A stretch of DNA of 35,059 nucleotides from Xanthobacteraceae bacterium. GTDB lineage: Bacteria; Pseudomonadota; Alphaproteobacteria; Rhizobiales; Xanthobacteraceae. Within the stretch, counting starts at the first letter, position 1. Each line of letters starts with the position of its first letter. Under the pieces are notes generated by a model, which did no database searches, was not told the origin of the DNA, and saw nothing but the letters and a program-made list of their open reading frames with translations. The stretch is from NCBI GenBank assembly GCA_019746355.1, contig JAIESC010000258.1, forward strand, positions 1 through 35,059, read 5' to 3'. The translations under genes were made by a program, and so were the position numbers. Positions 3,565-30,769 of the stretch are shown here, one piece after another.

Positions 3565-4248
3565 CTACACCGGCGCGCCGAGGGCACGGAGCCTCGCCAT
3601 GATGTCGTTGTAATCCATGCCTTTCCTGGCGCGTTCGTTGAAGGCTTCGACGGCTGCCCGGCTCGCGCTTTGCGGAACGACAACCGGTGCTGCTGCATCG
3701 GTCGGATATGACGGGGGCGGACCGGGTTGCTCCGGCTCAGGCCTGGTCGTCAGAGACTTGCTCGTCAGAGGCATGCCAACCCACTTTTCCAGGTCGGCAA
3801 TGATTTCGGCCGGCGACTTCGCCGCGATCTCGGCCTTGATTCGGGCCCGCCGGGCCGCATCATCGTCGCGCGCGGGGTCGACAGCCGTCGCGGCGTCATC
3901 GGTCTGGGGTGGCGGGGGCGGGCCGGCGTCGTCCGGCCGGACATGAGCGGGCAGCGACAGACCGACAGCGCGGAGCGCCTGCTCCGCGGTGGCGGTGCCC
4001 GTGGTTCTCGACAGGATCGTAGCGTGCAGCGAGGCTGCGTGATCGCGCGGCATCGCGGCGTGGTGACGCCTGAAGCAGTCGTGCGGATCGCCGGTGCAGC
4101 CACGCTGTTTCCAGCACCTGTTGCTGCACTGTCGCCAGAACTCGAACAGGTTGCACTGGAAGCGCTTGCGGTTTTCCGCGATCTGCGCGCGAGCGCCCGG
4201 GCGCTGGTGCGTCGCACGATCGGAATAAGTAAAGCTGAAAGTGCCCAT
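3565..4248 (-). CDS. Hypothetical protein with Cys cluster and Pro-rich middle
   Basis: 227 residues, not recognised. The N-terminal ~70 residues hold four cysteines in a short stretch (CSNRCWKQRGC, then DPHDC) within an Arg/His-rich context, a spacing that could bind zinc or form disulfides. A Pro-rich stretch (GPPPPPQTDD) and an acidic/basic helix with many Ala and Arg follow. A second Pro-rich stretch leads to a C-terminal helix (VEAFNERARKGMDYNDIMARLRALGAPV). There is no signal peptide or membrane helix. The ATG at 4248 has GGGAAG at a suitable distance. It stands alone, with the hairpin-rich region on its upstream side. The frame is well supported; the function is unknown. Confidence 0.6.
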   Translation of the reverse strand: MGTFSFTYSDRATHQRPGARAQIAENRKRFQCNLFEFWRQCSNRCWKQRGCTGDPHDCFRRHHAAMPRDHAASLHATILSRTTGTATAEQALRAVGLSLPAHVRPDDAGPPPPPQTDDAATAVDPARDDDAARRARIKAEIAAKSPAEIIADLEKWVGMPLTSKSLTTRPEPEQPGPPPSYPTDAAAPVVVPQSASRAAVEAFNERARKGMDYNDIMARLRALGAPV

Positions 4249-4365
4249 CGTGTTTCTTCCCGAGTGCCCGCCCCTGGTTGCTTGCCCGGCGCATTCGCGG
4301 GCGCGGCTGCTCGTTGCCGCGACGCGTGGCGCCCGGGATTTGCAGAGGCTCTTCCTGTTGCTCGC

Positions 4366-4707
4366 CTCTTGAAGAGGGGAGCGGAGCGCCGAAAGGCGCA
4401 GGGGTTTGCGACCCCTTCCGGGCCGTTGCGTGCGGCCCGGAGAACACGCTTTGCGAAGCGTGTTCGGGTCCCCTTGCGATCGGAGACCCTCGCCTTTCGG
4501 CGCTCCACCACGGCGTTTTCGTGAGGCCTCGCCTCACACACCTCAGGCCGCGCTTCCCTGCCGGGTTACTGGCGCTTTCACCCGGCAGTCCAGCAGAGCT
4601 CCCTGCGCGCGAGTCGTAGTGCCCGCGAGGCGGGGTCCCGAGGCGCCCCGAGAGTCCGGTTGGATCGACCGGACGCGCAGGCGCCGCTCCTGCTTCTGCC
4701 AATGGTT
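4366..4707. repeat. Hairpin-rich structured element, possible ncRNA or dispersed repeat
   Basis: The gene-free stretch 4249-4836 is dominated by symmetric sequence. A perfect 16-bp inverted pair (4383-4398 and 4491-4506) encloses four successive hairpins: 4400-4416, 4418-4440, 4442-4465 and 4466-4489. Each has TTGCG in or at its loop. The left outer arm can alternatively fold alone with a GAAA loop (4386-4399). Further hairpins follow at 4521-4537, 4558-4588 and 4654-4674, and CCTCTT/AAGAGG precedes it near 4366. Short open frames cross the region but carry no recognisable protein. I have an unverified memory of similar sequence elsewhere in Bradyrhizobiaceae. Orientation and transcription are not shown. 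Confidence 0.6.
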
Positions 4708-4836
4708 CCCACCGGTTGGGCCCCTCAACTAAGCAGGATGAATAGAACAAATAAAGAACATAACGAAAGAGTCAACCCATCAGCTGGAGCTGCGACGAAG
4801 CCAAATTATCCAACGATGTCTGTTGCTTAGACGCGC

Positions 4837-5079
4837 CTAGTGGCGACGCGGCTTGGCCTCGCCGGCGACTTCGGGCGCCTCGCCCTTCTCCAGCACGAAG
4901 TGACCGAGATTCGCGACGATGTCGGCGAGCAGCGCGGTGCGGTCCTCGGGCTCGGCGGTCAGCACCAGATCGGCCAGCACCTCGGTGACCTTGGCGGCGA
5001 TCTGGGCGAGATCGGCCCCTTCGCGCCCGAGCTCCACGTCCAGCAGATCGTGAATGTCGCAGTGGATGCAGTCTGACAC
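4837..5079 (-). CDS. Small acidic cytosolic protein, unknown
   Basis: 80 residues starting at a GTG (5079) with GGAG seven bases upstream. The N-terminus MSDCIHCDIHDLLD holds a CxxC pair plus two His, followed by two acidic helices (LAQIAAKVTEVLADLVLTAEPEDRTALLADIVANLGHFVLEKGE) and a short basic end. It looks like a compact helical protein, possibly binding metal at the CxxC; I know no function. It lies on the far side of the hairpin element, diverging from the MntA gene. Confidence 0.65.
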   Translation of the reverse strand: MSDCIHCDIHDLLDVELGREGADLAQIAAKVTEVLADLVLTAEPEDRTALLADIVANLGHFVLEKGEAPEVAGEAKPRRH

Positions 5080-5224
5080 GAGGAAGCTCCGTTCGGCGGC
5101 GAGGACGGCCGCGCGGCGCGCGGCCAGGGCCTCACTGGTAATAGATGGAGGACAATGGCCGGGAGGGCAATGGAGGCTTGCCCACGCTCCCGCCGCTGCG
5201 GATGTCCCATGCTATATTTATCGG

Positions 5225-5521
5225 ATGAACAGAAGCGACGCTCTTGCCATTCTTCGCAAATCGGAGACGGCGCTCCGGGCGCGGGGCGTGCAGAGAATTG
5301 CCGTGTTTGGATCGGTGGCGCGGGGCGACAACCGCCCCGACAGCGACCTTGATATCATGATCGAGATCGCCCCCGACGCCCGGATCGGTGTTTTCGAATA
5401 TGTCGGGCTCAAGGAATACATCGAAGGCCTGTTCGAGGGACCGGTGGACGTCGTGAGCCGCGACGCGCTGAAACCGTATGTCCGCCCGGCGGCAACGGCC
5501 GATGCCGTCTATGCCTTCTAG
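5225..5521 (+). CDS. mntA: MntA-type nucleotidyltransferase antitoxin (MNT domain)
   Basis: 98 residues, a minimal nucleotidyltransferase. The catalytic signature is intact: Gly29-Ser30, then Asp41 and Asp43 (GSVARGDNRPDSDLD), with a third acidic strand at PVDVVS. In HepT/MntA toxin-antitoxin pairs such a protein AMPylates and silences the HEPN ribonuclease encoded next to it. Here the next reading frame, 5607-5956, is a HepT relic, so the identity rests on both motif and context. The start at 5225 gives the family's normal N-terminal helix; the ribosome site is weak. The stop codon lies within the arm of a palindromic repeat. Confidence 0.85.
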   Translation: MNRSDALAILRKSETALRARGVQRIAVFGSVARGDNRPDSDLDIMIEIAPDARIGVFEYVGLKEYIEGLFEGPVDVVSRDALKPYVRPAATADAVYAF

Positions 5522-7527: not shown

Positions 7528-9915
7528 CTATTGGCGCCCAACCGTGCCACTGCTCTCGCCTTTGAGATCGATCGTCACTTTGTCGATTTTGCCGGTGAAC
7601 CGGAAGGGCGGCTTATAGGTGAAGTCCACGGCCGAGCCGACGTCCTCGCCGATGTCCAGTCCTTCGCCAATGGACAGTTGAGCCGGAACGGTTTTCGGCA
7701 ATTGCCCTTCGGCAACCTTGGTGCCGTTCACGATCAGGGTCACGTTTGCCGCCTTCCCGAGTTCGCCTGCTTTGCCGTTGTAGACGAAGTCGACCTTAAG
7801 CTGGACCTTGCCCTTCGGGAGCGGGGCCGTGCCCGCGACCGTGTAGCGCTCCACCGCCAGGAAGTTATAGACAAACGTCGGTTTGCCCTCGCGGATGTAC
7901 AGTGCGTAGCCGCCTTCCAACCCTCCTTGGGTTGCGATCATGCCCTCGACGCCGGTCTGAGGCACTTCGATGTCGGCGGTCAGCATCCAGGACTTGTTGA
8001 GAATACGCGGCGATGCCCCGCTGGGCATGCCGATTTGTCCCGGGTAGTAGGTGAGTGACTTGCGGTCACCCGAAAGGCTCGGGCGGCCCGCGATTTCGTC
8101 ACTGAAGCGCTCAGCGACTCGCCAGTCGAGTGGAAGTACGTTGTATTTGGCGGCCTCTACCCACCAGAGGTCCTGCAGCTGTCGAAGCTTTTGCGGATTG
8201 CCGGCTGCGAGATCATCGGCCTGCGAGAAATCTTCAGCAACGTTGTAGAGCTCCCACTTCTGCTTGTCGGGATCGAAGCCCGTGCGCACTGGTTGCCACG
8301 GCACGAACGAAAGGGCCGACGCCATCCAGCCGTCGTGATAGATGCCGCGGTTGGCTCCCATCTCGAAGTATTGCGTCGTGCGCCGGCTTTTGGCGTTGGC
8401 ATCGTTGAAGGTGTAGGCGAAACTGATGCCTTCGATTGGTTTTTGCGGAACGCCGTTAAGCTCTGTCGGCGGAGTGATCCCGATTACCTCGTAGAGCGTG
8501 GGTACGATGTCGATGACATGCATGAACTGCTGGCGCAGTCCGCCGCGATCTCCGATATGGGCTGGCCAGGAGACGATCATCGGATTACGCGTGCCGCCGA
8601 AATGGCTGGCGACCTGTTTGGTCCACTGGAACGGCGTGTCCATCGCGTGCGCCCAGGCAGCCGGGAAGTGGTTGAAGTGTTTTGGCCCGCCCAGTTCGTC
8701 GATCACCTTGAGATTGTCCTGCCACTTCTCGATGAAGCCGTTGAAGAACAAGTTCTCGTTGAGCGAGCCCTCGAGGCCACCTTCGGCACTGGAACCATTG
8801 TCACCCGCGATATAAATAAAGATGGTGTTGTCCGCGTCCGGCAACTGCTTCACGGCATCGATGATGCGGCCCATTTCGTAGTCGCACTCCGCACCATAGG
8901 CGGCGAACACTTCCATCATGCGGGCATAGAGCCGCCGTTGATCGGCATTGAGGGTGTCCCATGCCGGCAGTCCCACCGACCGCTCAGTGAGCTTTGTGTT
9001 GGCGGGTATGACGCCGAGCCGCTTCTGTCGCTCAATCGTTTCCTCGCGATATTTGTCCCACCCCATGTCGAACTTGCCCTTGAACTTGGCGATCCAATCC
9101 GGTGGGACCTGGTGCGGGGCGTGCGTCGCGCCGGGCGCGACATAGAGAAGGAACGGTCTGTCGGGGGCGATGCTCTTCACCCTGCGCACCCACGCAATGG
9201 CGTGGTCGGCAAGGTCGGTCGTCAGGTAGTAATTCGGATCGCTGGAGGCGGGCACGAGGTTCCGGTTCTCGTAGAGCACCGGGTTCCAGTGGTTCATGTC
9301 GCCGCCGTTGAAGCCGTAGAAGTAGTCGAAGCCGAGGCCATTGGCCCACCGGTCGAATGGGCCGGCAACGCTCGCTTCCCAGACCGGCGTGTTGTGGTTC
9401 TTCCCGATCCAGGCCGTCATGTACCCGTTCTGCCGAAGCACTTCGCCAATCGTGCCTGTATTGCGCGGCAGGACCGTGGTGTAGCCATCATATCCAGTGG
9501 CTGCTTCGCCGATTACGCCGGCGGCCGCAGAGTGGTGGTTGCGCCCGGTAATAAGCGCAGCGCGTGTCGGACTGCACAGGGCCGTCGTATGGAAGCTGTT
9601 GTAGCGCAGGCCCTCTGTCGCGAGCTTGTCCATCGTTGGCGACGGTACGCCGCCGCCGAACGTGCTGAACTGGCCGAAGCCGGCGTCGTCGATCAGAATG
9701 AGCACGATGTTCGGCGCACCCTTGGGCGCCTGTACCGGCTGCGGGAACTGCGCCGGGTCGGAATCGGCATAAGTTCGTCCGACGTTGCCGGGGAAATGGA
9801 AGTCAGGACGCGGCAGTACACTTGGCGTCCCGCTCTCTTGAGCGATGGCCTCAGTTCCAACCAGGGCGCTTCCTGCAAGAAGCGCCGCAATACTTAGACT
9901 TGTCAGCATTCGCAT
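7528..9915 (-). CDS. Arylsulfatase (Cys-type, exported)
   Basis: 795 residues. A signal peptide (MRMLTSLSIAALLAGSALVG, cleavage near AIAQ) targets it to the periplasm. The type I sulfatase core follows: Ile-Asp76-Asp77 for the metal, and Cys114 in CSPTRAALITGR, the C-x-P-x-R signature in which the Cys becomes formylglycine. FIYIAGDNGSSAEGG is the second metal-site block. The C-terminal ~200 residues form an added beta-rich domain (GGYALYIREGKPTFVYNF), typical of the large ~780-residue arylsulfatases. AAGGGGAAAC-type ribosome site before the ATG. It sits 39 bases after the DUF1254 gene, so the two form an operon. No formylglycine-generating enzyme is in the window. The natural substrate is unknown. 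Confidence 0.93.
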   Translation of the reverse strand: MRMLTSLSIAALLAGSALVGTEAIAQESGTPSVLPRPDFHFPGNVGRTYADSDPAQFPQPVQAPKGAPNIVLILIDDAGFGQFSTFGGGVPSPTMDKLATEGLRYNSFHTTALCSPTRAALITGRNHHSAAAGVIGEAATGYDGYTTVLPRNTGTIGEVLRQNGYMTAWIGKNHNTPVWEASVAGPFDRWANGLGFDYFYGFNGGDMNHWNPVLYENRNLVPASSDPNYYLTTDLADHAIAWVRRVKSIAPDRPFLLYVAPGATHAPHQVPPDWIAKFKGKFDMGWDKYREETIERQKRLGVIPANTKLTERSVGLPAWDTLNADQRRLYARMMEVFAAYGAECDYEMGRIIDAVKQLPDADNTIFIYIAGDNGSSAEGGLEGSLNENLFFNGFIEKWQDNLKVIDELGGPKHFNHFPAAWAHAMDTPFQWTKQVASHFGGTRNPMIVSWPAHIGDRGGLRQQFMHVIDIVPTLYEVIGITPPTELNGVPQKPIEGISFAYTFNDANAKSRRTTQYFEMGANRGIYHDGWMASALSFVPWQPVRTGFDPDKQKWELYNVAEDFSQADDLAAGNPQKLRQLQDLWWVEAAKYNVLPLDWRVAERFSDEIAGRPSLSGDRKSLTYYPGQIGMPSGASPRILNKSWMLTADIEVPQTGVEGMIATQGGLEGGYALYIREGKPTFVYNFLAVERYTVAGTAPLPKGKVQLKVDFVYNGKAGELGKAANVTLIVNGTKVAEGQLPKTVPAQLSIGEGLDIGEDVGSAVDFTYKPPFRFTGKIDKVTIDLKGESSGTVGRQ

Positions 9916-17318: not shown

Positions 17319-19016
17319 TCACTGACCCTGGCGGTTCTTGATCACCTCCTCGACCTTCTTCTTCACCGCCTCGAGATTGAACGATGCCGGATCCTGCATC
17401 GGCGGATAATCGATCCCCGTCTGCGCCAGCTCGCCCACGAACTGCTGGACCTGGACGAAGCGCCAGAACTCCCGGGCGTAGAAGTCGTTGCCGTAACCGA
17501 ACGCGCCGGTGTTGCTCGACTCGCCGCGAATGCTCGGCGTGCGCTCGAACGGATCCTGGCGGATGTTGACGATCGAAGGCATATCCGTGGTGACCTTCTC
17601 GCCCGGCCATCCGTAAGGCTGTGCGTAGAACGTGAACTTGAAGTTGTCGATGCGAACCGCACCGAGCTGCGCGCCGCCGAAGTAGAAGATTTCGCGGCGC
17701 TTGGACGGGCCCTTGCCGGTGAGCAGGTCCATCTGGTTGTAACCGTCGAGGTGATTCTTGTAGGTCCGGTCACCGAGCTGCACGCCCTTCAGAAGCTGCA
17801 CGGTGATGTCGGGGTTGCCCGCCGCGGCCATCAGGGTGGGGAACCAGTCGAGACCGGACATGATCCCGTTCTCGACGCGGCCCGGCCTGACCTGGCCCGG
17901 CCACCGGATGATGCACGGCACGCGGAAGCCGCCTTCGCCGACGGTGCCCTTGGTGTTCTTGAACGGCGTCATGCCGCCATCCGGCCAGGTGAACACCTCC
18001 GCACCATTGTCGGTGGTGAAGATGACGATGGTGTTGCTGGCCTCGCCGATGTCGTCGAGATGCTTGAGCAAGGCGCCAACGCTGTCATCGAGCTGCGCCA
18101 TGCCGGCCTCCTCGAGACCGTAGTTGGTCTCGCTGTTCTGCATCGCACTGTACTTCTTTGGGAGGAACGTCCAGACGTGCATGCGCGTGGTGTTGTGCCA
18201 GACAAAGAACGGCTTGCCGTCGCGCTTGGCCTTGTCCATGAAATCGGAGGACGCCTTGACCAGCACCTCGTCGAAGGTGGTCATATCGTATTTCGGCTTC
18301 AGGAACGGCAGGTCGTGCATGTTCGGCACGTTCGACATGTCCGGGAACGGCGGCAGCGGGCCTTCGTCGACGATCCTCTGCTTGCCGACCTTGCCCCAGC
18401 GCGGCATCTCGGCCGGGTCCTCGGCGTCGGTCGCGTAACTGCGGATCAGGCTGCGGGGACCGTACTTGTTGTAGTAATCCTGATTGGCCGGGAACGAGTA
18501 CCAGTACGGATCGGACATCGCGTCGAGGTGGTACAGATACCCGAAGAACTCATCGAACCCGTGCAGGGTCGGCAGATATTTGTTCAGATCGCCGAGATGG
18601 TTCTTGCCGAACTGCCCGGTGGCATAGCCCTGGGTTTTCAGGGCGGTGGCGAGCGTGACCGCCTGGGCCGGGATGCCGACGTCGGCGCCCGCCTGGCCTA
18701 CGGTGGTGAGGCCCGTGCGCAGCGGCAGCTCGCCGGTGATGAAGTTCGCCCGTCCCGCCGTGCAGCTTGCTTCGGCATAATAATCGGTGAAGCGCATCCC
18801 CTCGGCGGCGAGCCTGTCGAGGTTCGGCGTCCGGCCGGACATGATCCCTTGGTGGTAGGCGCCGATGTTGAACCAACCGACGTCATCACCCATGATGACG
18901 AGGATGTTCGGCCTTCTCGGTTGCGCTGGTTGTTGAGCCTCGACGGTCGTGCTCGCCACCGCGACGGCGGCAGCCGACGCCAGCAGGCCCAGACAGAGCG
19001 ATCTGAATACGCTCAT
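17319..19016 (-). CDS. Arylsulfatase, C-T-A-G-R type (exported)
   Basis: 565 residues. The start at 19016 has GAGGAGTGG upstream and opens a signal peptide (MSVFRSLCLGLLASAAAVAV, cleavage near VEAQ). The sulfatase core shows ILVIMGDDVGWFNIGAYH and Cys85 in ASCTAGRANFITG: the position after the spacer is Ala rather than Pro, still within the C-x-P/A-x-R rule for formylglycine formation. TTDNGAEVFTWPDGG supplies further metal ligands. It lacks the C-terminal beta domain of the sulfatase at 7528-9915, and their core sequences differ widely, so this is a different subfamily. A 22-bp direct repeat lies ~130 bp upstream. The substrate is unknown. Confidence 0.92.
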   Translation of the reverse strand: MSVFRSLCLGLLASAAAVAVASTTVEAQQPAQPRRPNILVIMGDDVGWFNIGAYHQGIMSGRTPNLDRLAAEGMRFTDYYAEASCTAGRANFITGELPLRTGLTTVGQAGADVGIPAQAVTLATALKTQGYATGQFGKNHLGDLNKYLPTLHGFDEFFGYLYHLDAMSDPYWYSFPANQDYYNKYGPRSLIRSYATDAEDPAEMPRWGKVGKQRIVDEGPLPPFPDMSNVPNMHDLPFLKPKYDMTTFDEVLVKASSDFMDKAKRDGKPFFVWHNTTRMHVWTFLPKKYSAMQNSETNYGLEEAGMAQLDDSVGALLKHLDDIGEASNTIVIFTTDNGAEVFTWPDGGMTPFKNTKGTVGEGGFRVPCIIRWPGQVRPGRVENGIMSGLDWFPTLMAAAGNPDITVQLLKGVQLGDRTYKNHLDGYNQMDLLTGKGPSKRREIFYFGGAQLGAVRIDNFKFTFYAQPYGWPGEKVTTDMPSIVNIRQDPFERTPSIRGESSNTGAFGYGNDFYAREFWRFVQVQQFVGELAQTGIDYPPMQDPASFNLEAVKKKVEEVIKNRQGQ

Positions 19017-19145
19017 CTTCCACTCCTCGATGTCTGTCGAAATGATCAAGAGCTTCGCAGTTGCCCTGCGCCTGACTTAATGCCCTTGGCGGCCGAACGA
19101 TACTGACATTCGGGGTAGCGGTGACGTCAGGACACTCGGCTTGGC

Positions 19146-30565: not shown

Positions 30566-30667
30566 CGCCGCGCCTTCAGGACTGCTAGAGCCGTTCCCGT
30601 TGCGACGATTGCTCTACCCGACAGGTGCCTTGACGGGAAGGCGGGCGGCTCGTATGACCACACCTAT

Positions 30668-30724
30668 CTCGTGGTCATTTGAGCCGGCCGGCTTGCTAGC
30701 CACGTAAAACAAGTAGCTAAAAGG
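30668..30724 (+). promoter_or_regulatory. SAM-II riboswitch upstream of metZ
   Basis: The conserved SAM-II (metA-motif) blocks appear in order: CGTGG (30670-30674) pairing with CCACG (30700-30704) as P1, the loop TCATTTGAGCCGGC and GGCTTGC, the TAAA after P1, and the 3' pseudoknot strand AGCTAAAAGG (30715-30724). Two bases (GC) seem added in the loop relative to the usual form (CCGGCCGGC). SAM-II aptamers are known in alphaproteobacteria before methionine genes, which fits metZ downstream. High SAM should switch metZ off. Confidence 0.92.
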
Positions 30725-30738
30725 CCGGGGACGCGTGT

Positions 30739-30769
30739 ACCCGGCCCGAATTATCGGCCGGGTTTTTTT
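30739..30769 (+). terminator. Rho-independent terminator of the SAM-II switch, with competing antiterminator
   Basis: ACCCGGCC (30739-30746) pairs with GGCCGGGT (30756-30763), followed by seven T (30763-30769): a classical intrinsic terminator 20 bp before the metZ start. Its left arm can instead pair with GGCCGGG at 30723-30729, which begins in the riboswitch's own 3' strand. SAM binding would tie up that strand and free the terminator. Confidence 0.85.

Follow-up and report, generated by a model that had tools for sequence, protein, structure and literature searches.

A multicopy structured RNA with CGCAA-tipped hairpins and a linked gene for a Cys/Arg-rich protein in Xanthobacteraceae

The window (the whole stretch of 35,059 nucleotides of Xanthobacteraceae DNA that was analysed) carries on its minus strand a structured RNA with approximate ends at 4310..4739 and, directly downstream of it, a gene encoding a 227-aa Cys/Arg-rich protein (3565..4248, minus strand). 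The 3' end of the RNA lies about 60 nt ahead of this conserved gene and was placed at the last segment common to the subtype, whereas the 5' end was placed from the promoter and a homology boundary. The promoter, on the same strand, has a -35 region (TTGACT..., 4764..4775; read in the sequence and from the homology boundary in relatives) and, close to the -10 region, a GTTC-N7-GTTC box (GTTCTTTATTTGTTC, 4745..4759) of the LexA/SOS operator type. The RNA comprises a 5' domain (4507..4739), delineated in alignment A4, with a closing hairpin, a long-range GCGGCG/CGCCGC helix, inner hairpins and a conserved loop CACTACGA, and a core domain (4383..4506), delineated in alignment A2, in which a 16-bp outer stem (4491-4506 with 4383-4398) surrounds four hairpins. 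These are, in minus-strand order, hairpin 1 (4466..4489, loop GATCGCAA, from the predicted fold and the sequence) and, all three read in the sequence, hairpin 2 (4442..4465, with a 10-bp stem and the tip TTCGCAAA), hairpin 3 (4417..4441, loop CACGCAA) and hairpin 4 (4400..4416, tip TCGCAAA). The core is followed by a 3' hairpin (CTCCCCTC...GAGGCGAG, 4361..4381), to which segments 3' of the core in many copies look alike by eye, and by a conserved 3' segment (CCCGGGCGC...GCGGCAACGAG, 4310..4337), recognised by eye, which is the final stretch common to the subtype. By eye, a GGCTGTTTGA[AC]A..TGAATC-like tail recurs 3' of different subtypes (L055, L050, L057), at times in tandem (L055). Other features of the window include a small ORF with a nucleotidyltransferase domain (PF01909) close to the RNA locus (5054-5521, plus strand), two sulfatase-family genes (7528-9915 and 17319-19049, both minus strand) and a SAM_alpha riboswitch with a gathering-level Rfam match (30661-30740, plus strand).

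The original prediction had concerned an ordered array of hairpins with TTGCG loops within a perfect 16-bp inverted pair. The arms 4383-4398 and 4491-4506 are indeed complementary at 16 of 16 positions, and the four TTGCG motifs lie exactly where they had been placed (4406-4410, 4426-4430, 4451-4455 and 4474-4478), and in the predicted fold every one of them caps a hairpin. Further hairpins had been noted beyond the array; out to about 4681 these agree with the predicted fold and with a covarying 5' domain. The proposed extent, 4366-4707, does enclose the array, but the RNA is longer, from about 4739 to about 4310. That first reading had not covered the strand, the promoter and its LexA-type box, or the 5' domain, and had left out the gene for the linked protein. 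TTGCG occurs 126 times in the whole window against 141 expected, i.e. without enrichment, so the signal resides in its clustering in loops. The region of 342 nt folds far better than its shuffles on both strands (z -6.9 on the plus and -7.8 on the minus strand). All four hairpins of at least 6 bp in the 92-nt interior of the core have CGCAA (minus strand) at their tip, and among 2000 dinucleotide shuffles of this interior 1981 contained no hairpin with the tip motif, 19 contained one and none contained two, in agreement with the claim that the repeated loop is not a product of chance. We consider it all but certain that the array is the core of a real structured RNA family.

The stems show the compensatory changes that had been proposed as a check on the prediction. 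In the core (alignment A2, 19 copies), 28 of 44 pairs have a compensatory change and 88.5% of the cells are paired against 77.2% in shuffles, a level reached by none of 500 shuffles; when the partners were slid by 1 to 3 columns, pairing amounted to only 39-51%. The A2 structure consists of RNAalifold helices to which hairpins 3 and 4 were added by hand from L034, and hairpin 3 is the weakest part (68.9% of its cells paired). In the 5' domain (alignment A4, 12 copies), compensatory changes were found in 19 of 54 pairs and 93.0% of the cells are paired, again unmatched in 500 shuffles. In short variants (e.g. L051 and L057) the core is present but the long 5' domain is missing. Covariation in both domains bears out the view that the region encodes a structured RNA and not a protein. 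Read on the minus strand, A2 contains 52 G.U pairs against 23 A.C mismatches (p 0.001), an excess that fits the minus strand as the RNA, and we infer from these sequence features that an RNA of about 430 nt is transcribed on this strand from about 4739, with CGCAA at its hairpin tips.

The loops appear to be selected for their sequence, as had been suggested. Among 96 non-redundant cores, CGCA tips were found on 123 of 235 hairpins, on unrelated stems, against 9% in shuffles (on average 10 of 108), and 41 of the 96 cores have three to five hairpins. This set was defined by outer arms complementary at 14 or more of 16 positions and by an orientation score, and may still contain false entries; a looser listing of inverted pairs (13 of 16, both strands) contained many spurious ones. 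Frequent tips are CUCGCAA and GAUCGCAA. That homologues would keep the loop holds as a strong preference but not as an absolute feature, since some subfamilies in the Xanthobacteraceae MAG G001 have four hairpins with other loops (CGTCA, CGCT, GCAA or GTAA, CGGTTT). Elsewhere, hairpins with a CGCAA-type loop are rare: 4 were found in 435 kb, of which 2 lie in a copy of the element from the single-contig genome G081 (L128) and 1 in the window element.

The box at 4745-4759 overlaps the window promoter, so that the operator by which members of the SOS regulon can be recognised in sequence is present at the position where it would be needed. We take GTTC-N7-GTTC to be the alphaproteobacterial LexA box; G001 and G081 both have this spacing 5' of their lexA gene, on the strand opposite lexA. 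In G001 the exact box is present in 18 of the 25 readable copies, 19 to 27 nt ahead of the RNA start, and in G081 in 23 of the 59 parsed copies, within 440 nt 5' of the core, against a background rate of about 0.002 per 120 nt on one strand. Five of 91 entries from other loci also have it, of which three are G001 or G081 places again and two belong to G013. By eye, the box was absent from single loci in five genomes of the same genus (L031, L032, L033, L038 and L049, from G150, G119, G135, G102 and G164, respectively). The LexA-type box was thus seen only in the window, G001, G081 and G013, and LexA control is therefore predicted, from the sequence, for the window copy and for some relatives and not for the whole family. 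A second promoter class in G081, with a TTTGC..GCAAA palindrome (27 of 59 copies matched a loose pattern, e.g. L099, L103 and L116), suggests another regulator. In this genome 60 stretches were fetched at copies, 59 of which could be parsed and 36 aligned at the 5' end; in the aligned copies homology begins about 45 nt 5' of the RNA 5' end and identity is at chance level (0.26) before that point.

The RNA family appears to be abundant within a narrow group of bacteria. A profile scan of genome contigs for relatives of the adjacent protein yielded two loci, L001 and L002, both in G001 and both with an array and an upstream region of the type found in the window. A DNA search of G001 gave 28 places, and a covariance model of the core gave 39 matches there (35 distinct after removal of opposite-strand duplicates) and 64 in G081 (61 distinct places). 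With a query from a third subtype, 2 to at least 20 matching segments per genome were found in nine other genomes, some copies being represented by two segments. The many dispersed copies per genome among relatives agree with the earlier suggestion of a repeat family. In the family to which G001 belongs, 52 of 119 sampled genomes had a model match (E 1e-5 or better), and a DNA query at E 1e-3 matched in 124 of 296 genomes. At the level of the order, 3 of 397 genomes had a model match, all three from the same family as G001, and at the level of the class 1 of 385, which was G001. Restriction of the RNA to one bacterial family is thus likely, though not proven, because eight candidates were scored per genome in the order and class searches against 28 in the family search.

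A 17-base word of the element was found in seven IMG/VR contigs, classed as viral, three of which look like carriers of short members of the RNA family: L062, L064 and L065 match the core model at 40.4, 40.4 and 30.8 bits, respectively, and have the outer stem and the 3' hairpin, L064 also the promoter and the 5' hairpin. The Cys motif of the linked protein was not found downstream of these three. When phage and plasmid records were searched with the window element, no relative was recovered, only three plasmid matches at chance level, and the L056 element had no match among plasmids. In searches of Rfam 15 with the window and eight further loci, the only matches were to tRNA and SAM_alpha and lay outside the element, and a permissive Rfam search of 4200-4900 gave two matches that were both far under the threshold.

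L001 is the positional counterpart of the window locus: the flanks upstream of the RNA are 94.4% identical over 356 aligned positions. The two RNAs, however, share only 81.6% identity, whereas the window RNA is 95.2% identical to L005 at another locus. L001 and L002 have identical RNAs over 370 nt, although the proteins encoded there share 70% identity. Among the copies, variants of promoter, body and core are combined in many ways, and a G081 copy beside what we take to be a dehydrogenase-like gene has no counterpart in the 420 nt 5' of the orthologue in five genomes of the same genus. Judged by these sequence comparisons, copies move or undergo conversion as units. The 61 places on contig C1 of G081 are spaced far more evenly than expected (mean 134 kb, CV 0.51 against 0.98 for random places, with none of 20,000 draws as even), and only 4 gaps are shorter than 60 kb where 21.8 were expected. 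In six other genomes even spacing was not significant by CV, so we do not claim regular spacing as a general property. By eye, the copies on this contig are mostly oriented with replication near the likely origin (from sampled GC skew) and mostly against it nearer the terminus.

Genes encoding the Cys/Arg-rich protein are linked to an RNA copy in most of the places found. A profile of the adjacent protein found 26 places in 19 of 292 genomes (a lower bound, as nine candidates were scored per genome), with the RNA directly upstream on the same strand in 21 of the 26, L001 and L002 included. A wider profile found 12 further places in 25 genomes, 11 of them with the RNA upstream, and a third profile, applied to 15 genomes picked for lacking a match to the wider one, found four places (E 2.7e-7 to 0.0024), all with the RNA upstream. 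In total, the protein gene is directly preceded by a same-strand RNA at 36 of 42 places. The linked RNA matches score 29.9 to 122.9 bits and, for 32 of these 36, a median of 207 nt separates the RNA and protein matches; in comparison, the model gave nothing above 22.5 bits over 435 kb outside known copies. Of the negatives, four (L251, L259, L267 and L276) lie close to a contig end, about 180 to 330 nt away on the upstream side, and L258 and L264 are true negatives in which the RNA is absent upstream of the protein gene. The protein searches were made without reference to the RNA, and the linkage therefore supports the RNA and the protein separately; its count does not equal a number of independent events, since two of the linked places (L242 and L261) had come to light before proteins were searched for and near-duplicate places (L257 and L265) are present.

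Most RNA copies nevertheless seem to be solo. RNA and protein places number 61 and 0 in G081, 35 and 3 in G001, at most 9 and 1 in G057 and at most 6 and 2 in G208. No protein homologue was found in G081 with two profiles among the best 150 of 197 and the best 150 of 167 candidates, which means that the protein either is dispensable in some genomes or has diverged too far in this one. With a strict Cys motif, the gene was found downstream of at least 4 of 120 distinct cores, each represented by a single locus, a lower bound because the motif misses at least one known case (L035, whose gene was found by profile), and never antisense or upstream; in the several hundred bases available 3' of the 59 G081 copies the motif was not found.

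In 20 homologues W38, C41, C45, C51 and C58 are invariant and lie in an Arg-rich stretch. The window protein has no Pfam match and no significant relative in PDB by sequence, and for 20 linked proteins Pfam, PHROGs, PADLOC and NCBIfam yielded no significant relative; weak matches of single members included SGM_3592 (E 0.0022), an HNH PHROG (0.012) and IS630 (0.026). No transposase, reverse transcriptase or nuclease of the kind expected of an autonomous transposon or intron was recognised among the linked proteins. The AlphaFold model of the window protein is poor (pLDDT 51), whereas that of a short relative, P0057, is a confident all-helical prediction (pLDDT 85.3) that had no match among PDB and viral structures.

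Sequence comparison has thus brought together a promoter-like start, covarying domains, kept CGCAA tips, many copies, exchange of units, an operator-type box at the window copy and linkage to a protein gene. The reading that we favour, tentatively and at somewhat below an even chance, is that of a new family of independently transcribed RNAs that form an RNP with the dedicated, linked Cys/Arg-rich protein. DNA damage would free the promoter from LexA, after which the RNA would be made, together with the protein where the loci are paired. The small basic protein with its four invariant Cys residues would then bind the RNA, for which the repeated CGCAA hairpins would be the likeliest docking or assembly sites, and solo copies would act in trans by providing RNA of this type. 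A protein sponge had been among the roles suggested in the original prediction. In CsrB, which titrates CsrA, the hairpins act as a sponge, and by analogy the tips could titrate an RNA-binding protein, either the linked one or a general one, with solo copies raising the dose. An identical tip on unrelated stems, the three to five hairpins in many cores and the multiple copies within genomes all fit such a role, but a sponge would not need a large conserved 5' domain with a conserved loop of its own, and G081 has many copies in the absence of a detected linked protein; we regard this explanation as unlikely. It is also rather improbable that unpaired CGCAA tips pair with many mRNAs, in analogy to the alpha-r14 sRNAs: hypervariable stems with kept loops would share that design logic, but the CGCAA loop is no anti-Shine-Dalgarno sequence and the complementary word TTGCGAG falls below expectation, irrespective of gene starts, in 400 kb of G081 (42 against 76.8 expected, both strands).

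The position of the RNA upstream of the protein gene on the same strand would suit a 5' attenuator or autoregulatory site of that gene, but most copies have no such gene detected and downstream of the copy at L005 lies an ORF of at least 365 codons in convergent orientation, with its end about 448 nt away from the 5' end of the copy, so a role as a cis leader seems very unlikely. We give equally little credence to a non-autonomous mobile DNA in which the hairpins are DNA ends or signals and the transcript is incidental. Dispersed copies, a sharp 5' boundary and the lack of the element upstream of the orthologous gene in the five genomes mentioned above are what such an element would leave behind, but the 5' boundary coincides with the promoter, G.U pairs are in excess and compensatory changes occur throughout, and no terminal inverted repeats or target duplications were noticed by eye. 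A selfish or domesticated element centred on the RNA itself is likewise a doubtful explanation. The transcription unit, from the promoter to the 3' end of the RNA, would spread and be homogenised between loci, possibly by way of RNA or an RNP, a process helped by the protein and triggered by DNA damage. The protein gene would be part of full elements, solo copies would be served in trans, and the even spacing in G081 would reflect exclusion of nearby insertions.

The locus adds an RNA family without an Rfam match and a protein family without a Pfam match that are mutually linked; the RNA is abundant in one bacterial family, some members of which have a DNA-damage-type operator in front of it. 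The RNA is undescribed in the literature searched (titles and abstract openings); a fragment may have been sighted before, most likely among the BjrC sRNAs (Madhugiri 2012). The array resembles those of the sponge RNAs CsrB and RsmZ, in which one loop motif, GGA, is also repeated over a series of hairpins, but the motif here is CGCAA, the window RNA has a large covarying 5' domain, and none of the 25 listed non-CGCA loop sequences contains GGA. Intergenic palindromic repeats, Br-REP1 and Br-REP2, occur in related bacteria; they are tens of bases long, and their published consensus sequences are, by eye, absent from the window element (PMC5082802). A repeat of about 100 bp at query positions 3589-3694 of L120, with many matches in the same genus, looks by eye like the Br-REP2 consensus (PMC5082802). 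A REP/BIME, i.e. a short promoterless palindrome, was ruled out for the window element, as the unit measures about 430 nt and starts at a promoter.

The alpha-r14/NfeR1 sRNAs share with the window RNA hypervariable stems, a kept loop motif and several genomic copies, and they expose anti-Shine-Dalgarno loops on these stems (PMC7143759). They differ in that the loop of the window RNA is CGCAA, which is not an anti-Shine-Dalgarno motif, and in that a protein gene is linked to it. The window RNA is presumably also longer than alpha-r14. GOLLD and ROOL are large ornate bacterial RNAs as well (PMC12286853), whereas the window RNA lacks an Rfam match; the element matched none of the OLE, GOLLD and ROOL Rfam models, which we assume to be present in the library. 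OLE RNA (with OapA/OapC) is a large ornate bacterial RNA with a biochemical role that is still unknown, and it forms an RNP with proteins, as the window RNA may do judging from its gene linkage. OLE is found in other bacteria, whereas the window RNA has no Rfam match, is dispersed in multiple copies and is linked to a small Cys/Arg-rich protein without known relatives. We know of no OLE-like RNP with tens of dispersed and homogenised copies, a LexA-type box, or hypervariable stems under kept tips. As a kind, the window RNA is nearest to large ornate RNPs such as OLE, and it offers a ready system for the role of large ornate bacterial RNAs, with copies open to deletion or recoding, a candidate partner protein and a predicted condition of induction.
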